DNA of 64,000 nucleotides from Prochlorococcus marinus str. MIT 0917 (lineage in GTDB: Bacteria > Cyanobacteriota > Cyanobacteriia > PCC-6307 > Cyanobiaceae), in assembly GCF_027359575.1 (NCBI RefSeq), contig NZ_CP114784.1:1487819-1551818 (forward strand). The letters are read 5' to 3'. Below, in pieces: positions 6,131-39,826 of the stretch; position 1 is the stretch's first letter, and each line of letters begins with the position of its first letter. Both the position numbers and the translations under genes were made by a program. Below the pieces are notes generated by a model, which saw nothing but the letters and a program-made list of their open reading frames with translations, did no database searches and had not been told where the DNA came from.

Positions 6131-6277
6131 ATGAAGGATAACTTCGAACCTCGTTATGGATTTGTCAATTTTGCTGAAATATGGAATGGCAGATTAGCTA
6201 TGATGGGTATTTTAATTGGTTTAACAACAGAGCTTTTAACTGGGCAAGGTATTTTAACTCAGATGGGAATAGGTTGA
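6131..6277 (+). CDS. hli: High-light-inducible protein (HLIP, one-helix LHC-like)
   Basis: A 48-residue protein translated from ATG 6131 to TGA 6277. It has the chlorophyll a/b-binding motif AEIWNGRLAMMGILIG, with the Glu and Asn/Arg used to bind chlorophyll, inside a single transmembrane helix. It ends in the TELLTGQGILTQMG stretch typical of marine cyanobacterial HLIPs. HLIPs bind chlorophyll and carotenoid, protect photosystem assembly and are induced by high light or stress. No clear HLR1 (RpaB-binding) repeat was seen in the 100 bases upstream. Confidence 0.92.
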   Translation: MKDNFEPRYGFVNFAEIWNGRLAMMGILIGLTTELLTGQGILTQMGIG

Positions 6278-14101: not shown

Positions 14102-15784
14102 ATGGAATTAAATACTGGCTTTAATAAAAATGAAATTTACTCAACAAGTTGGGATGTAATTGTTATTGGAGCAGGAGCTGCGGGCTTAATGTCTTCTCTT
14201 GAATTGCCATCAAATCTCAAAACTTTACTGTTAAATCGCAATACTAGTAAGCGTTCTTCCAGTAGATGGGCACAAGGAGGAATGGCTGCTGTTACGAGAA
14301 TCGAAGATAGCGAGGATATTCATGCTCTGGATACCATAAAAGCTGGGGCTGGACTATGTGATTATGAAGCTGTTCAGATGTTTGTTGAGAGTGCTCCGAA
14401 ATTAGTAGATAGACTTTTGAAACTAGGAATGGAATTTGATAGAAATTCTGGAAACTTATCTACAACTCTTGAGGCTGCTCATACTCATAGAAGAGTACTT
14501 CACGTGAAAGATAGAACTGGAAAGGCATTGGTAGATGTTCTTAATGAGCAAGTTGATCAAAGAGATAATGTGTTGCATCAAAGAGGAATAAGAGTTACTC
14601 AGATTTGGGTTGAAAGAGGAAGATGTTTAGGTGTACAAGTTCTAGATGGACCAGCTTTGCGTTGGATAAAAGCAAAGGCAGTAGTTTTAGCTACGGGAGG
14701 AGGTGGACATTTGTTTGCCAATACCACAAATCCAGCTCAAGCAGCAGGTGAGGGAATTGCCTTAGCTTGGAGAGCTGGGGCTTTCATAGAAGATCTCGAA
14801 TTCTTTCAGTTTCATCCAACTGCTCTAAAATTGGATGATGCGCCCTCATTTTTGATTTCGGAAGCTTTAAGGGGAGAGGGTGCAGTTTTAGTGGATTCTC
14901 TTGGAGAGAGCCCCGTAGCTCACCTTGAAGGGAAAGATCTGGCATCAAGAGATCAAGTCAGCCGGGCATTGTTTAAAGCAATGCAAAAGCAAAAAGTTGA
15001 TCACATTGGTCTTGATGTCAAATCCATCGCTTTTGAGGATATAGAAGCGCGCTTTCCATCAATTTTTCAAAGGTGTAGAGAGCTTGGTTTAGAACCTTTA
15101 AAAGAATTAATACCCGTAGCTCCATCTGCCCATTATTGGATGGGTGGTGTCGCTACCAATTTGAAGGCACAAACGAATATCAAAGGACTTTTTGCAATAG
15201 GTGAGGTTGCATGTACTGGTCTGCATGGTGCAAATAGACTTGCAAGCAATTCATTAATGGAATGTTTGGTTTTTGCAAATCAAATGCGAAATATTCAATT
15301 AAATGATTTCAAAACTTCCGATATCTCAGGAAAAAATTTAAGTTTTAACAAATCTAATCTTCGCTTCTCTAAGGATAAAGGAACTAAGTATTTATCAAAA
15401 GAAATTGAAAAACTTAGACAATTATGTTGGAGTGAAGCTGGAGTTGATAGATCCAGGAAAGGGATGAGCTCTGCTCTTACAAAAGTTAAACGAGATTATC
15501 AAAATCTTTTAAACGAGCCCTTATTAAAATTGGTTTTTTCTCAGTCAAAATATAAAATTAATAAATTCGATGAAATTGCCAGAAGAGACCTGAATTTGCT
15601 GCTTGATTTGAGTAATCGACAAATGTCAAGTTTGCTTATGTTGGAGGCTTGTTTGTTTCGTGAAGAGAGTAGAGGAGGTCACTTTAGAGATGATTTCCCT
15701 ACTTCCGTTCCTTTTTGGCAATGTCATACTCGTCAAATAAAAGGAAAAAATATTCATACAAGACCTATTGGTGGCAAATGCTGA
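14102..15784 (+). CDS. nadB: L-aspartate oxidase
   Basis: A 560-residue flavoprotein that oxidises L-aspartate to iminoaspartate, the first step of NAD synthesis. The FAD dinucleotide motif VIGAGAAG is at 21-28. Further succinate-dehydrogenase/aspartate-oxidase blocks are SSRWAQGGMAAV, HTHRRVLHVKDRTGKAL, FQFHPTAL, SEALRGEGA and APSAHYWMGGV, then GLHGANRLASNSLMECLVF near the end of the catalytic part. The C-terminal helical domain is present, so the protein is full length. Confidence 0.95.
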   Translation: MELNTGFNKNEIYSTSWDVIVIGAGAAGLMSSLELPSNLKTLLLNRNTSKRSSSRWAQGGMAAVTRIEDSEDIHALDTIKAGAGLCDYEAVQMFVESAPKLVDRLLKLGMEFDRNSGNLSTTLEAAHTHRRVLHVKDRTGKALVDVLNEQVDQRDNVLHQRGIRVTQIWVERGRCLGVQVLDGPALRWIKAKAVVLATGGGGHLFANTTNPAQAAGEGIALAWRAGAFIEDLEFFQFHPTALKLDDAPSFLISEALRGEGAVLVDSLGESPVAHLEGKDLASRDQVSRALFKAMQKQKVDHIGLDVKSIAFEDIEARFPSIFQRCRELGLEPLKELIPVAPSAHYWMGGVATNLKAQTNIKGLFAIGEVACTGLHGANRLASNSLMECLVFANQMRNIQLNDFKTSDISGKNLSFNKSNLRFSKDKGTKYLSKEIEKLRQLCWSEAGVDRSRKGMSSALTKVKRDYQNLLNEPLLKLVFSQSKYKINKFDEIARRDLNLLLDLSNRQMSSLLMLEACLFREESRGGHFRDDFPTSVPFWQCHTRQIKGKNIHTRPIGGKC

Positions 15785-34877: not shown

Positions 34878-34949
34878 TCCTCGGTAGCTCAGCGGTAGAG
34901 CGATCGGCTGTTAACCGATTGGTCGCAGGTTCGAATCCCGCCCGGGGAG
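34878..34949 (+). tRNA. tRNA-Asn (GTT)
   Basis: A complete 72-base cloverleaf. The acceptor arm TCCTCGG pairs with CCGGGGA with one G-U. The anticodon stem ATCGG/CCGAT encloses the loop CTGTTAA with anticodon GTT. The T-loop is GGTTCGAATCC, and the discriminator base is G. CCA is not encoded. It marks the left edge of an accessory islet: a degenerate copy of its last 20 bases recurs near 39.64 kb. Confidence 0.97.
34930..34949 (+). repeat. tRNA-Asn 3'-end segment, candidate attachment core (left)
   Basis: The last 20 bases of tRNA-Asn (TTCGAATCCCGCCCGGGGAG) match 39628-39647 at 17 of 20 positions, including the run CCCGC-CGGGGAG. Integrative elements that target tRNA 3' ends leave such direct repeats at the far border. 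The second copy is not part of a tRNA. Confidence 0.5.
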
Positions 34950-34960
34950 TTTTTAGAAAC

Positions 34961-35060
34961 ATTCAGAAGAATTCAGGAGACCTCAAAAGGTCTCTTTTTT
35001 TTTCTATGACTGCCTTTTTGGTGAAATAGGGAATTCAGTAGCAGTCAGGATCATTCAGGA
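34961..35060 (+). repeat. Five phased A(T/G)TCAG-type motifs, candidate recombinase arm sites
   Basis: Octamers of the form A(T/G)TCAG(A/G/T)A start at 34961, 34971, 35033, 35043 and 35053. Spacing inside each cluster is exactly 10 bases, one helical turn. They begin 12 bases after the tRNA end. Arm-type binding sites of tyrosine recombinases are arranged like this. The same motif with extra matching bases (ATTCAGTAGCA) recurs at 39609, beside the far tRNA-like repeat. No integrase gene is in the window. Confidence 0.4.
34977..35003 (+). terminator. Rho-independent terminator after tRNA-Asn
   Basis: Stem GAGACC (34977-34982) pairs with GGTCTC (34989-34994) across a six-base loop, followed directly by nine T residues. 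It is well placed to end tRNA-Asn transcription. Confidence 0.85.
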
Positions 35061-35175
35061 AAAGTCACTGTTTTCTGCCCTTTGTTGAAAAACAGAACTA
35101 TTTTGTCCGTGATATAGAAGCAAGGGTTTTTTGTGCCCGAAAATCGCTCAAACCCGTTACTATCAGAGGCTTCTG

Positions 35176-35184
35176 TGGTATAAT
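35176..35184 (+). promoter_or_regulatory. Extended -10 promoter (TGGTATAAT)
   Basis: The sequence TGG-TATAAT at 35176-35184 is a perfect extended -10 consensus. No strong -35 is needed with an extended -10. It lies ~310 bases upstream of the TPR/oxygenase gene. It may drive that gene with a long leader, or a small RNA ending near a weak TGGG...CCCA hairpin and T-run at 35275-35298. Confidence 0.5.
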
Positions 35185-35425
35185 AGTAGTACTCTATAAG
35201 CGAAATCGTAAGAATAGTATTAGAGGTTTGGGTCCAGTTTCAGTCAATTTTTTAAAAAATTATCGAGTTTTGAATGGGATTTCTTCGCCCAATTTTTTAA
35301 CTATTAAAGAAATGGATAAAAAGATATAAGTAACTTGGATGACTTCAATCAAGTAACTATTGATAGATTTCTATGAATTAAATAAAAATTATCTCAAAAA
35401 AAGTTTTAATAAGGATAGAGTGAGT

Positions 35426-35479
35426 ACTCAAATTACTCAAATTAATCAAATTACTCAAATTACTCAAATTAATCAAATT
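35426..35479 (+). repeat. Six tandem 9-bp repeats (ACTCAAATT / AATCAAATT)
   Basis: The units follow the order A-A-B-A-A-B, where A is ACTCAAATT and B is AATCAAATT, so a 27-base block is duplicated. The repeat sits just upstream of the ribosome-binding region of the TPR/oxygenase gene. It lies in an open frame from GTG 35420 to TAA 35491 that would encode a 23-residue (T/N)QI-repeat peptide. Confidence 0.9.
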
Positions 35480-35497
35480 ATAAGTTTATAAAAAATA

Positions 35498-37480
35498 ATG
35501 GAACCTAGTGATAAAGATCAAGGGAAAAAGAATATACCTCAAGTCCAAGCATTTACTTTCCCATTTGCTTCGGGAGAAATCAAAGAAAACATCACTATTA
35601 CTACTAACACTCCTTCTAAACCTTCTAAAGAACAAATAATCAATCAAGCATTTAAATTTCATTCACAAGGAAATATTTTAGAAGCAACAAAATATTATGA
35701 ATACTTCATCAATCAAGGATTCAAAGATCATGTCACTTTTGCTAATTATGGACTCTTATTAAAAGATCTTGGCAATTTAAAAGACGCGGAATTATTACAA
35801 CGTAAAGCAATTGAACTTAATCCTAATTACGCAGATGCGCATTCAAATCTGGGAGGCATTTTGAAAGACCTGGATGAATTAAAAGAAGCAGAAGTCTCCA
35901 CGCGTAAAGCAATTGAACTTAAACCTGATTTTGCAGATGCGCATTCAAATCTGGGAGGCATTTTGAAAGACCTGGATAAATTAAAAGAAGCAGAAGTCTC
36001 CACGCGTAAAGCAATTGAACTTAAACCTGATTTTGCAGATGCTCATTCAAATCTGGGAGGCATTTTGAAAGACCTGGATGAATTAAAAGAAGCAGAATTC
36101 TACACGCGTAAAGCAATTGAACTGAATCCTAATTTTGCAGATGCTCATTTAAATCTGGGAGGCATTTTGAAAGATCTGGATGAATTAAAAGAAGCAGAAG
36201 TCTCCACGCGTAAAGCAATTGAACTGAATCCTAATTTCGCAGATGCTTATTTAAATCTGGGAGGTATTTTGAAAGACCTGGATGAATTAAAAGAAGCTGA
36301 AGTCTTCACGCGTAAAGCAATTGAACTTAAACCTGATTTCGCAGATGCTCATTTAAATCTGGGAAGCATTTTGAAAGAACTGGATCAATTAGAAGAAGCT
36401 GAAGTCTTCACGCGCAAAGCAATTGAACTGAATCCTGGTCTAAGCAAAGCGCATGAAGTATTAGGTTTAATACACCTCGAGAAAGGTTCATATGAATTAT
36501 CTCTTGAAAATTTTTTAGAAAGTTCTCAGTTAGTTAGAGGTCACAAAAATAAAGAAACCAACCAAGAAAGATTTAGAAGAATTAGCCAAGCTAAAATCGA
36601 ACATGATATTGAACAATTTGAATATTTAGCATCTAAAGGTTACGACTCTAAAAAATTTAGTGATCTTGCCTTTCTGTATAAAAAAGTTTACACTGAAATT
36701 AATTGGCCATCTGAAACCGAATTTATTTATTTAAATAATGAACATCATAGCATTCTGAAAAATAGTTATAATCGTTTAATAAATGTAATAGAAGCTCCTA
36801 GGTTAAAAGAAGAAGTAATCAATAATTCCTTAGATATTGAACAAATAACTAATGATTATACTAACCATGAATTCGGACTTACTTTCATTGATAATTTATT
36901 AAGTTCAAAAGCAATAGAATCTCTTAGAAAATTTTTACTCGAAAGTACAATTTGGTTTGATATTAAAAGGGGTGGATATATCGGAGCATATTTGGCAGAG
37001 GGTTTTGCTAACCCTTTAATCATTCAAATAGCAGATCAACTTAGACAGAAATTTCCAAAAATTTTTAAGGATTACCATATAAACAAAATATGGGCTTATA
37101 AGTACGATAGCCGCGCTAAAAATTACAAATCATCTCTTAATGGCATAAATGTTCACGCAGATTTCGCGGCGGTAAATGTCAATTTCTGGCTTACTACTAA
37201 CGAGGCGAACTTAAATCCTAACTCTGGTGGTTTAATCGTCTACGACGTAGAAGCACCAAAAGCTTGGGATTTCAAAACTTATAATACTAATGTGACCAAA
37301 ATTCAAGAAGAAATAAAAAGAAACAAAGCTAATACTACAGTGATTCCATATAGAGAAAACCGAGCGGTTGTCTTCAATTCAAATTTATTTCATGAAACTG
37401 ATAGATATGAATTCAGAGAAGGATACGAGAATCGTCGAATCAATGTGACTTTACTATTTGGACGAAGAGAGGATAGTTAG
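35498..37480 (+). CDS. TPR-repeat protein with C-terminal 2-oxoglutarate/Fe(II)-oxygenase-like domain
   Basis: A 660-residue protein. Residues ~1-75 are a leader module (FPFASGEIKENITITTN...) shared almost exactly with the protein at 37935. Residues ~77-345 are TPRs, six of them near-identical 34-residue units (111-314). The C-terminal ~200 residues carry a His553-x-Asp555 ... His632 iron-triad pattern with Arg647 available for 2-oxoglutarate, resembling prolyl-4-hydroxylase-type oxygenases. Substrate is unknown; hydroxylation of a protein or glycan is conceivable. It has no signal peptide. It is the first gene of the islet after tRNA-Asn. Confidence 0.8.
   Translation: MEPSDKDQGKKNIPQVQAFTFPFASGEIKENITITTNTPSKPSKEQIINQAFKFHSQGNILEATKYYEYFINQGFKDHVTFANYGLLLKDLGNLKDAELLQRKAIELNPNYADAHSNLGGILKDLDELKEAEVSTRKAIELKPDFADAHSNLGGILKDLDKLKEAEVSTRKAIELKPDFADAHSNLGGILKDLDELKEAEFYTRKAIELNPNFADAHLNLGGILKDLDELKEAEVSTRKAIELNPNFADAYLNLGGILKDLDELKEAEVFTRKAIELKPDFADAHLNLGSILKELDQLEEAEVFTRKAIELNPGLSKAHEVLGLIHLEKGSYELSLENFLESSQLVRGHKNKETNQERFRRISQAKIEHDIEQFEYLASKGYDSKKFSDLAFLYKKVYTEINWPSETEFIYLNNEHHSILKNSYNRLINVIEAPRLKEEVINNSLDIEQITNDYTNHEFGLTFIDNLLSSKAIESLRKFLLESTIWFDIKRGGYIGAYLAEGFANPLIIQIADQLRQKFPKIFKDYHINKIWAYKYDSRAKNYKSSLNGINVHADFAAVNVNFWLTTNEANLNPNSGGLIVYDVEAPKAWDFKTYNTNVTKIQEEIKRNKANTTVIPYRENRAVVFNSNLFHETDRYEFREGYENRRINVTLLFGRREDS
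35564..35815 (+). repeat. Dispersed repeat, copy 1 (shared leader module)
   Basis: 252 bases aligned without gaps to 38001-38252, with about 11 differences by eye. It encodes the common N-terminal module and first TPR of both islet proteins. It ends where the two proteins begin to diverge. Confidence 0.92.
35828..36439 (+). repeat. Six tandem 102-bp units encoding TPRs
   Basis: Each unit encodes a 34-residue TPR of the form ADAHSNLGGILKDLDELKEAE... The units are near identical in DNA, including silent positions (for example CTGGGAGGCATTTTGAAAGACCTGGATGAATTAAAAGAAGC recurs, broken here only by single changes). This level of DNA identity points to recent slippage or gene conversion rather than ancient TPR divergence. 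Confidence 0.92.
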
Positions 37481-37934
37481 CTTATTTTACTATGGCCTCT
37501 AAGAAAATTAATCTAACTCTTAAATTAGTTGACCACTAAAACATATATGAAACCATACGAATCAAATTATCACTAAACAGAGACGTTACTGTTCTGTTTC
37601 TCCCACTCAATAGTTCATAACTAAAATATTTATTATAACCCCAATCACTCACTCGATTTCATCTACATTTTTTGTAAAACCTTTATAAAACGTGTATGAT
37701 ACATTTTTGCCCATTTATATTTCCATCTTAGACATGGATTTAGAGAGCCTAAATCATATTTTATCCTGTTTCTGCTTAGTTACATTGTCCTATTAAATCA
37801 CATTTATAAATAGAGAAACAATATAAAAATTTACTGTTTATTCTCACATTATAGACTCAAAATTAATTTTTGAAAAAATAAAAAAGAAGTTGACTTTGTA
37901 GTAAAATTCTTTAGATTTCGAGTCTTAAAGATAC
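37481..37934. other. 454-base gap between the two TPR genes
   Basis: AT-rich with no convincing ORF. A bulged hairpin (AAACAGAGAC with GTTCTGTTT, 37575-37599) lacks a T-run, so it is a weak terminator candidate. A TTGACT and TAGATT pair 16 bases apart near 37889-37916 is a plausible promoter for the downstream TPR/methyltransferase gene. Confidence 0.45.
37889..37916 (+). promoter_or_regulatory. Candidate promoter of the TPR/methyltransferase gene
   Basis: TTGACT and TAGATT separated by 16 bases lie about 20 bases upstream of the ATG at 37935. The spacing suits a sigma-70-type promoter. The AT-rich context makes chance matches common. Confidence 0.35.
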
Positions 37935-39251
37935 ATGGAAGAACTTGAGAAACAAGTAAAGGAGAACAAAGTAAATGAAGTGAAAACATTCCCAGTTACA
38001 TTCGCTTCGGGAGAAATCAAAGAAAACATCACTATTACTACTAACAATCCTTCTAAACCTTCTAAAGAACAAATAATCAATCAAGCATATAAGTTTCATT
38101 CACAAGGAAATATTTTAGAAGCAACAAAATATTATGAATACTTCATTAATAAAGGATTCAAAGATCATGTCACTTTTGCCAATTATGGACTCATATTAAA
38201 AGATCTTGGTAAGTTAAAAGATGCGGAATTATTACAACGTAAAGCAATTGAAATTACTCCTGATTTCGCAGAGGCGCATTTAAATCTGGGAATCATATTT
38301 AGAGATCTTGATCAATTACAAGAAGCAGAAGACTCCACTCGTAAAGCAATTAAACTTAATCCTGATTTAGCAGAGGCGCATTACAATCTGGGATCCATAT
38401 TGAAAGATCTTGATCAATCAAAAGAAGCAGAATTATCATATCGCAAAGCAATTGAAATTAATCCTAACTTCGCAGATTCACATTATAATCTTGGGAATAT
38501 TTTAAATAGTCTAGGTAAACTAGATGAAGGAGAGAAAAGTATAGTGCAATGCTTAAAAGTGAATGAAAATCATTTACAAGGGAGTCTCACACTTAGCGCT
38601 ATGAAGCTGCACCAAGGTGATAATTCATTATTGAAGCACTTAATAAAATCAAATCAATCAAATAATCCTTTTTTAAATTCTTTAAAATGGGTATCAGGTT
38701 TACCCAAGCTACCAGAAGTTTTTTTTGATAGATATTCTTTTTATGACGCAATAATTACTCAAAGTATAAAAAATCGACCTTTTTATGAGTTTGGTGTCTA
38801 TAAAGGTTCTTCATTTAAGTATTTAATGAAAACTTTTAAAAAAGGCTATGGATTTGATACATTTGAAGGCTTGCCTGAAAATTGGAATCATTTTAAAAAA
38901 GGAGCATTTTCAACACAAGGAACCATTCCAGAAATTAATGGAGGAACATTTATAGCAGGAATGTTCGAAGAAACATTACCTACGTTTTTTTCTAAACCAA
39001 GACCAATAGCATCAGTTATAAATTTTGACGCCGATCTATATTCTTCTACTGTCTGTGCGTTGAATTATTCAAAACCAATAATAGATAAAGATACGATTTT
39101 AATTTTTGATGAGTTTATTGTCCACGAAAATTGGGAGCAAGACGAATATAGAGCATTCAATGAATTTTGCTTAAACAACAATTTTACTTACGAGGTTTTG
39201 GCAGTTTCTTATTCTACTTGTCAAACAGCAGTGAAGATAATAGGTATTTAA
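37935..39251 (+). CDS. TPR-repeat protein with C-terminal TylF-like methyltransferase
   Basis: A 438-residue protein. Residues ~1-75 repeat the leader module of the upstream protein, then about four TPRs (76-215). The C-terminal ~190 residues form a class I SAM-methyltransferase of the TylF/macrocin-O-methyltransferase type: Glu285-x-Gly287-x3-Gly291 (EFGVYKGSS), GFDTFEGLPENW, and the metal-site-like NFDADLYSST and FDEFIVHENW. Likely an O-methyltransferase on a sugar or other hydroxyl; the substrate is unknown. It is the second cargo gene of the islet. Confidence 0.82.
   Translation: MEELEKQVKENKVNEVKTFPVTFASGEIKENITITTNNPSKPSKEQIINQAYKFHSQGNILEATKYYEYFINKGFKDHVTFANYGLILKDLGKLKDAELLQRKAIEITPDFAEAHLNLGIIFRDLDQLQEAEDSTRKAIKLNPDLAEAHYNLGSILKDLDQSKEAELSYRKAIEINPNFADSHYNLGNILNSLGKLDEGEKSIVQCLKVNENHLQGSLTLSAMKLHQGDNSLLKHLIKSNQSNNPFLNSLKWVSGLPKLPEVFFDRYSFYDAIITQSIKNRPFYEFGVYKGSSFKYLMKTFKKGYGFDTFEGLPENWNHFKKGAFSTQGTIPEINGGTFIAGMFEETLPTFFSKPRPIASVINFDADLYSSTVCALNYSKPIIDKDTILIFDEFIVHENWEQDEYRAFNEFCLNNNFTYEVLAVSYSTCQTAVKIIGI
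38001..38252 (+). repeat. Dispersed repeat, copy 2 (shared leader module)
   Basis: Partner of 35564-35815, offset by exactly 2437 bases with no indel. The conserved 5' module followed by divergent effectors fits domain swapping between paralogues. Confidence 0.92.
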
Positions 39252-39387
39252 CAAAAAAGCAATAACAAACCAACTTACATAACTGGGCAAAATTTTAAAA
39301 AAAGCATCCTGATACCAATAAAAGAATGTATCAATTTTGGGTTTCTAAAGGCGAATAAATAATTAGGCTAAAGACGACAAAGATTAA

Positions 39388-39826
39388 ATGAGAGCCCAAG
39401 TAATTTGCTTAAATGTTTCATCCAGAAATGATGATTTGCCTGAAATGATTGAGCAATACTCAAAATCATTAAACCTAATCTAAAGCAGATACGTTTGCTG
39501 AGATTCTTCGTGCGTTTCCAATTCCTTTGGAGTGTAAGAAATACTTATTTGGTGAGTTATCTTTTTGTGGATTTTTCGGGGAAAATGCCTTCAAGAGCAT
39601 TTATGAGGATTCAGTAGCAACCAATTCAACTCCCGCTCGGGGAGCTTTAGGTAGCAAATGCAAAGTTGTTAATCCATCAGAATTGATTCTTTTGACGTGT
39701 AATTTTAAAAAAATATTGCGTAATTTGCTAGATGAAAACAAATCTGATGAATTTTTTATTAACGATTTATATGAAAGTTTTGAGAATTCCTTAACAGTAG
39801 CGCCTCGGAATCGGAAGACTTCCTAA
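39388..39826 (+). pseudogene. Possible frameshifted gene remnant
   Basis: An ATG frame (39388-39483, 31 aa, MRAQVICLNVSSRNDDLPEM...) ends in TAA. One base further on, a second frame stays open to 39826 and reads SKADTFAEILRAFPIPLECKK onward. A single +1 shift near 39480 would join them into ~145 residues. No family is recognised. Part of the second frame (NSTPARG) is simply the translation of the tRNA-like repeat, so this ORF may instead be spurious. Confidence 0.3.
39628..39647 (+). repeat. Degenerate tRNA-Asn 3'-end copy, candidate attachment core (right)
   Basis: TTCAACTCCCGCTCGGGGAG matches the tRNA-Asn 3' end (34930-34949) at 17 of 20 bases. It has no tRNA 5' half before it. Nineteen bases upstream starts ATTCAGTAGCA, also present at 35033 beside the tRNA. 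It sits ~360 bases before the core gene rpaA, where the islet would end. Confidence 0.45.

Follow-up and report, generated by a model that had tools for sequence, protein, structure and literature searches.

How did a run of TPR-coding units that are nearly identical in DNA arise in a Prochlorococcus gene, and what is the encoded protein likely to do? This question is raised by one gene in a 64,000-nucleotide stretch of the Prochlorococcus marinus str. MIT 0917 genome (contig NZ_CP114784.1), which we analysed as a whole and refer to as the window. The original prediction for this locus had proposed that the conserved silent positions of the units reflect a very recent expansion by slippage or gene conversion, and that unit number may vary between cells. 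It did not include the context of the gene, which is one of 44 mosaic paralogues and lies on an insert at a tRNA-Asn gene. The features considered here are collected in Table 1.

Table 1. Positions in the window of the array, its gene and the surrounding insert.
Feature	Position	Strand	Basis
tRNA-Asn(GTT); 3' end (34928-34949) is the left attachment-like sequence	34878..34949	+	ARAGORN
Terminator-like hairpin, left end of insert	34975..34996	+	similar sequence 3' of tRNA-Asn in G005 and G018
9-bp repeat array TACTCAAAT, 6.2 copies	35425..35480	+	TRF; leader directly upstream of gene
TPR-2OG oxygenase gene (predicted), 660 aa	35498..37480	+	ORF; Pfam TPR_1 etc.
N-terminal module, ~100 aa, common to the 44-member family	35498..35800	+	found in all 44 ORFs; no Pfam or NCBIfam match
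Six near-identical 102-bp TPR units	35801..36412	+	TRF; pairwise unit comparison
Degenerate last TPR unit, 47-49/102 to core	36413..36514	+	unit comparison
C-terminal 2OG-Fe(II) oxygenase-like domain (predicted)	36515..37477	+	alignments; AlphaFold2; PDB structural matches
Second family member: same N-module, TPR units, TylF/Methyltransf_24-like C-terminus (38544-39248)	37935..39251	+	ORF; Pfam
Three 102-bp TPR units of second gene, 77% matches	38187..38498	+	TRF
Decayed copy of tRNA-Asn 3' end, 16/19 identical, right insert boundary	39626..39644	+	comparison with relatives

The array and the C-terminal domain of its gene

The gene encodes a TPR protein, as judged by its match to Pfam model PF00515 (E=1.9e-50, six stretches), and its repeats form an in-frame array with a period of exactly 102 bp (TRF: 35801-36437, 6.2 copies, 93% matches). 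All 15 pairs among the six core units are identical at 91-98 of 102 bases, which bears out the near-identity that had been predicted; the predicted location referred to this same array, although its coordinates (35828-36439) were out of codon register by 27 bp. No two of the six units are identical in DNA, and the half-decayed units that flank them (starting at 35699 and 36413) match the core at only 45-49 of 102 bases. As a control, we compared adjacent 102-nt stretches in sliding windows along the 46 stop-to-stop ORFs of at least 200 aa within the window. The best match was 101 in this gene and 84 in the neighbouring gene, against at most 48 (median 40) in all other window ORFs, including a Ycf3-like TPR gene at 39.

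The similarity extends to silent positions, in agreement with the original prediction. Third codon positions of the array are conserved about as much as other positions, and codon agreement at shared residues is 0.912. Family codon usage predicts 0.536 and position-specific usage 0.674; the values between genes are 0.651 and, for units with an amino acid identity of 80% or more, 0.749. Among the six units, pS is 0.123 and pN/pS is 0.53. For every one of them, the nearest unit in the genome lies in the same gene (93-98 of 102 bases inside the gene; at most 82-86 outside). At the protein level, five consecutive units (170 aa) have an adjacent identity of 29-32 of 34 residues, which places the array within the definition of Dyrka et al. 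(more than 85% identity across 100 aa or more of repeats). Gain or loss of 102 bp leaves the reading frame intact, so it would alter the length of the array and would not switch the gene off. The 9-bp array directly upstream of the gene is possibly a separate, length-variable leader; paralogue 762812, whose leader is related to that of the window gene, has about one copy of the 9-bp repeat TACTCAAAT.

For the C-terminal domain, Pfam returned no family at E<=0.01 (a Pfam match is the usual, not the defining, sign of an oxygenase of this type), a PDB sequence search gave no match, and an NCBIfam scan found nothing for the modules of this gene. A first AlphaFold2 model built from 16 close sequences (pLDDT 42.9) was superseded by a model from a 49-row alignment, which reached a pLDDT of 95.2. 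Foldseek returned 445 PDB matches to this model at E<=0.001; the best structural match was HalB (Z 14.9, rmsd 3.1, 202 aligned residues), with P4H and PHD2 at 13.8. The putative iron triad and arginine are H214 (37154-37156), D216 (37160-37162), H293 (37391-37393) and R308 (37436-37438), and both the HxD...H motif and the Arg are present in every row of the two alignments (16 of 16 and 49 of 49). From the double-stranded beta-helix fold of the model and these residues, we predict that the C-terminus belongs to the 2OG-Fe(II) oxygenase superfamily. The domain shares the predicted fold, HxD..H and the conserved Arg with PHD2, P4H and the BesD/Hal group, and it differs from them in being fused to TPRs and in sequence, with 9-19% identity in the listed structural matches. 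In radical halogenases of the BesD/Hal type, the iron-binding Asp is replaced by a small residue. We rejected this activity for the window gene on the ground that D216 is invariant in all 49 rows; the conserved Asp favours a hydroxylase over a halogenase.

Module re-pairing in a 44-member family

A search of the gene's own genome gave 67 matches, and the fetched stretches contained 44 ORFs with the N-terminal module (members were counted at E<1e-20 with this module present). The module itself has no Pfam or NCBIfam match. Family members carry 3-16 canonical 34-aa TPR units, as counted with a score threshold of our own that may miss decayed units. Together they occupy 83,157 bases, a slight overestimate because ORFs were taken stop to stop, although one ORF (760745) is truncated by the end of its fetched stretch. 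This total is 4.32% of the genome, so that one mosaic family takes up about 4% of a genome of only 1.92 Mb.

The C-terminal ends fall into clusters of 12, 5, 5, 4, 3, 2 and 2 members plus 11 singletons. When we scanned 17 representative ends with Pfam, the classes recovered were sulfotransferase, GT41, methyltransferases (Methyltransf_25, TylF, FkbM) and 2OG-Fe(II) oxygenases, as well as a GT9-like class with a weak match below the cut-off. Four of the 17, including that of the window gene, had no Pfam match, and a fifth matched TPR models only. Three members consist of TPRs alone (L042:5439-7319, L044:4997-9034), and each is directly followed by a separate 2OG-FeII_Oxy_3 gene, indicating that enzyme and arm can be separate. 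A TPR-only paralogue with its stand-alone 2OG-FeII_Oxy_3 gene looks like a split version of the fused enzymes.

N- and C-terminal modules of the family do not vary together: across 946 gene pairs, the Spearman correlation between their identities was 0.046. Individual gene pairs illustrate this independence in both directions. Genes 1071204 and 1387852, about 316 kb apart, have C-termini that are 98.9% identical and N-modules at the 72% background, and their high-identity stretch starts within the TPR arrays of both. Conversely, the adjacent genes 806433 and 809362 have an identical leader and N-module and six identical units, and their C-termini (GT41-type and 2OG domains, with the GT41 label taken from the cluster representative) are 45% identical. 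The two family members in the window have N-modules that are 88% identical at the nucleotide level and unrelated C-terminal ends, and the end of the second gene is 94% identical in nucleotides, over the part compared, to that of paralogue 760745. These comparisons show that recombination has re-paired the N- and C-terminal modules and that the junctions lie inside homologous TPR DNA.

Within-gene similarity of units is a property of part of the family. The nearest unit was in the same gene for 92 of 310 family units and in another gene for 208, with 10 ties; the chance expectation for the same gene is 2.4%. As 208 units are closest to a unit of another gene, we conclude that within-gene homogenisation is real but partial. 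A run of three or more consecutive units at 85% amino acid identity is present in 9 of the 44 genes, and units identical in DNA occur inside two genes, three in 1712435 and two in 1397473. With its three identical units, 1712435 (L044:6441-8432; 16 units) makes a stronger candidate than the window array for length variation that is still under way.

Relatives in other genomes and the tRNA-Asn insert

Across the 300 genomes of the taxonomic family, 91 contain the N-module. Outside the genus the copy number is mostly 1-3, with 5 and 6 as the highest values among the matches listed, and inside the genus 16 or more copies are common. Proteins with the 2OG end of the window gene were found in 26 distinct versions, several of them cut by contig ends, and these have 2-11 units. 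Unit number is thus not fixed across strains; a fixed number would have counted against the original prediction. Five pairs of these relatives are at least 83% identical; one pair is cut by a contig end, and three of the other four differ in unit number.

At one syntenic locus, a gene has 5 units in one genome (G000) and 11 in another (G005). We initially considered this as an in-place expansion and dropped that interpretation, keeping the locus as positional evidence only, because the genes are less conserved (74-76% identical) than their flanks (83-92%). In addition, the C-terminus of the G005 copy falls outside the 8 closest, so replacement is possible. The same locus holds several family genes in G004, and no family gene was present in the stretches read from G031, G018, G038, G035, G015 and G022. 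Among viral contigs searched for relatives, none was confirmed. A contig assigned to a Crocinitomicaceae MAG (L102) carries a gene for a TPR-2OG protein with 70% identity to the query and is probably a mis-binned Prochlorococcus contig.

The two family members in the window lie on a 4.7-kb insert between the tRNA-Asn gene and a decayed copy of the tRNA 3' end. Both flanking genes lie on one contig in 23 relatives. The distance between the flanks is 439-591 bp in 16 of these and 980-3929 bp in the other 7, compared with 5163 bp here. We fetched 20 of these 23 relatives. The 3' end of tRNA-Asn is intact in all 20, and in 8 of them the right-flank match starts at window position 39625, directly at the tRNA 3' end. 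The site is empty in most relatives, with a short scar retaining both ends in G018, and it is occupied by other family members in three: a TPR gene with a separate 2OG-like gene (a likeness judged by eye) in G022 and G028, and a TPR-methyltransferase in G014. Within the insert (34950-39644), we found no recombinase among ORFs of at least 90 aa, which were two TPR genes and one short ORF; the latter (39527-39826), which extends over the right attachment-like repeat, matches no Pfam family and is probably spurious. Of the 9 clusters that the family forms in this genome, 4 are located no more than 3 kb downstream of the 3' end of a tRNA gene (P=0.001; 0.5 expected), and the other 5 are not.

Several further arrangements were seen at tRNA genes. 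In G032, the tRNA-Asn site (L092) has a carbamoyltransferase-like protein (identified by eye) in place of the TPR genes and a copy of the tRNA end with 4 mismatches. A 60-kb island (L036) contains two copies of tRNA-Ala(GGC) that face each other (6192-6266 and 15694-15768), one scoring lower than the other (50.7 vs 65.5 bits), with TPR genes past the 3' end of each. On contig C23 of G033, the response-regulator gene downstream of the insert is present twice in opposite orientation, which looks like an assembly artefact.

Origin of the array, possible function and known systems

The data support the part of the original prediction that invoked local expansion or homogenisation via recombination, in that the nearest units lie in the same gene, silent sites are more conserved than codon bias explains and relatives differ in unit number. 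In contrast, "very recent" is too strong, because pS is about 0.12 between units, similar to the divergence between species of the genus (flanks 83-92% identical), and no two units are the same. It is rather unlikely, in our view, that very recent plain replication slippage multiplied a single unit and left a length that is phase-variable between cells. In favour of slippage, the units are tandem and in frame, adjacent 102-nt stretches match at up to 101 of 102 bases in sliding windows, and other arrays of the family contain identical units. Slippage nevertheless fits poorly, because the variant sites are mosaic where a serial duplication ladder would be expected: of 21 pairs among seven informative biallelic sites, 12 fail the four-gamete test. 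On this evidence, exchange between units by unequal recombination or conversion is a better fit to the variants than plain serial slippage. Purifying selection acts on the TPR residues (pN/pS about 0.5), and ordinary functional constraint together with codon bias might be invoked to explain the array without recombination. We consider this very improbable, and we reject codon bias as the explanation, given that the observed codon agreement of 0.912 compares with 0.54 from usage, 0.67 from position-specific usage and 0.75 for similar units of different genes. Moreover, when we compared adjacent units at 44 of 79 loci with TPR-2OG relatives, Prochlorococcus included, the proteobacterial genes had ordinary divergent arrays (mostly 45-75 of 102 bases identical), with a gammaproteobacterial fragment (L113; 98 of 102) as the exception. 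Finally, tandem repeats are prone to assembly errors, but an artefact is barely credible for a 612-bp array in a single-contig genome whose units differ at identifiable sites and whose family has matches in 41 of 41 genomes of the genus.

We consider it probable that the array serves as a docking arm and that its gene belongs to a large family of TPR-docked modifying enzymes that is mosaic and recombining. TPR positions 2, 5, 9, 12, 13, 33 and 34, which we take to be concave and ligand-facing, are more variable than other positions (mean entropy 2.47 vs 1.41, p=2e-5). There was no sign of positive selection at these sites, as pN is higher there, but pS is higher too, without an excess of pN over pS; in young unit pairs across the family, pN/pS is 0.45. 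In the proposed mechanism, the concave surface would bind a shared class of partner or substrate, changes in unit number and concave residues would tune that binding, and exchange of the C-terminal enzyme would change the modification made. The window gene would contribute hydroxylation by an Fe(II)/2-oxoglutarate oxygenase, and the family as a whole may diversify the cell surface, for instance against phages. The island neighbours include a nucleotide-sugar dehydratase and transferase, an aminotransferase, SIS and PfkB heptose-type genes and a carbamoyltransferase. From these neighbours, and from the domain names, surface glycans or surface glycoproteins appear to be the most likely targets, an assignment that we hold with somewhat less than even confidence. 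GT41 enzymes classically act on cytosolic proteins, and we counted this against a surface role. We also considered a phage defence gene and rejected this assignment, since the PADLOC matches of the four proteins scanned, including one to a model named PrimPol, were only through the repeat region.

Two further readings concern why such genes are abundant. The genes could be passengers of tRNA-targeting mobile DNA, with arrays and modules varying by recombination of the elements and without benefit to the host. The attachment-like repeats and variable cargo at the tRNA-Asn site and the excess of clusters beside tRNA 3' ends are in line with this proposal, yet pN/pS is below 1, the catalytic residues are invariant and five of nine clusters are not near tRNAs, so we regard it as having a low probability. 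A role of the low-light TPR expansion in photosystem II assembly or light adaptation is slightly less probable again. It was proposed in PMC11357015, which finds TPR Pfams to be most represented in low-light strains. However, that analysis counts Pfam domains, and the TPR genes described here encode fusions with transferases and oxygenases, in islands that also carry sugar-nucleotide genes. The many TPR domains of low-light strains may therefore be, at least largely, one family of fused modifying enzymes and not assorted TPR scaffolds. For the family of TPR-docked enzymes, we can extend the proposal, though we think this wider version more doubtful than not: low-light Prochlorococcus would have a combinatorial modification system in which dozens of transferases and oxygenases dock through TPRs and recombination through the repeats keeps reshuffling their arm lengths and enzyme ends. 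This system would be spread in part on recombinase-less, tRNA-targeted cargo and would diversify the surface against phages. If the family does re-deal arms and enzymes, surface variation in this abundant phytoplankton lineage would have a concrete source, and it would become possible to test how phage pressure or partner binding shapes streamlined genomes.

Several elements of this picture are already known from the parts of the literature that we compared, namely repeat homogenisation (PMC4986451), tRNA-linked cargo (PMC10872708, PMC10654061) and the TPR excess in low-light Prochlorococcus (PMC11357015). We found no account of this mosaic TPR-enzyme family in our search of the open-access literature. 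The low-light TPR abundance is the same phenomenon seen at the level of Pfam counts, and the compared passages of PMC11357015 mention no family, modules, silent-site conservation or tRNA insert. Tycheposons and tRNA-linked islands of Prochlorococcus, as described in PMC10872708 and PMC10654061, resemble the insert in three respects: the cargo is located next to a tRNA gene, the 3' end of that tRNA is repeated at the opposite boundary, and the content of a given site varies. The insert shows the integration at a tRNA gene with a 3'-end repeat that marks tycheposons, and it is unlike them in lacking a tyrosine recombinase and in being too small and decayed for that name. Polymorphic toxins (PMC3482391) likewise have a constant N-terminus and C-terminal domains exchanged by recombination, whereas the C-termini of this family are modifying enzymes and not toxins.

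The closest parallel is with fungal NLR and hnwd genes, in which repeat homogenisation is accompanied by number polymorphism (PMC4986451, Dyrka et al. 2014, in the passages compared). Such genes, also the subject of Chevanne et al. 2010 (PMC2873952), have very similar TPR, ANK or WD units, unit-number polymorphism, combinatorial assortment of domains and variable concave TPR residues, features that recur in the family studied here, where unit number differs among relatives. The family differs in being bacterial, in that the exchanged part is a modification enzyme and in a pN/pS without a signal of positive selection; for the window gene, Pfam gives only repeat-type families (TPR and similar), with no NACHT or NB-ARC domain. 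If the combinatorial system exists, bacteria would have an equivalent of the fungal NLR repertoires that recombine through repeats, with enzymes replacing receptors.
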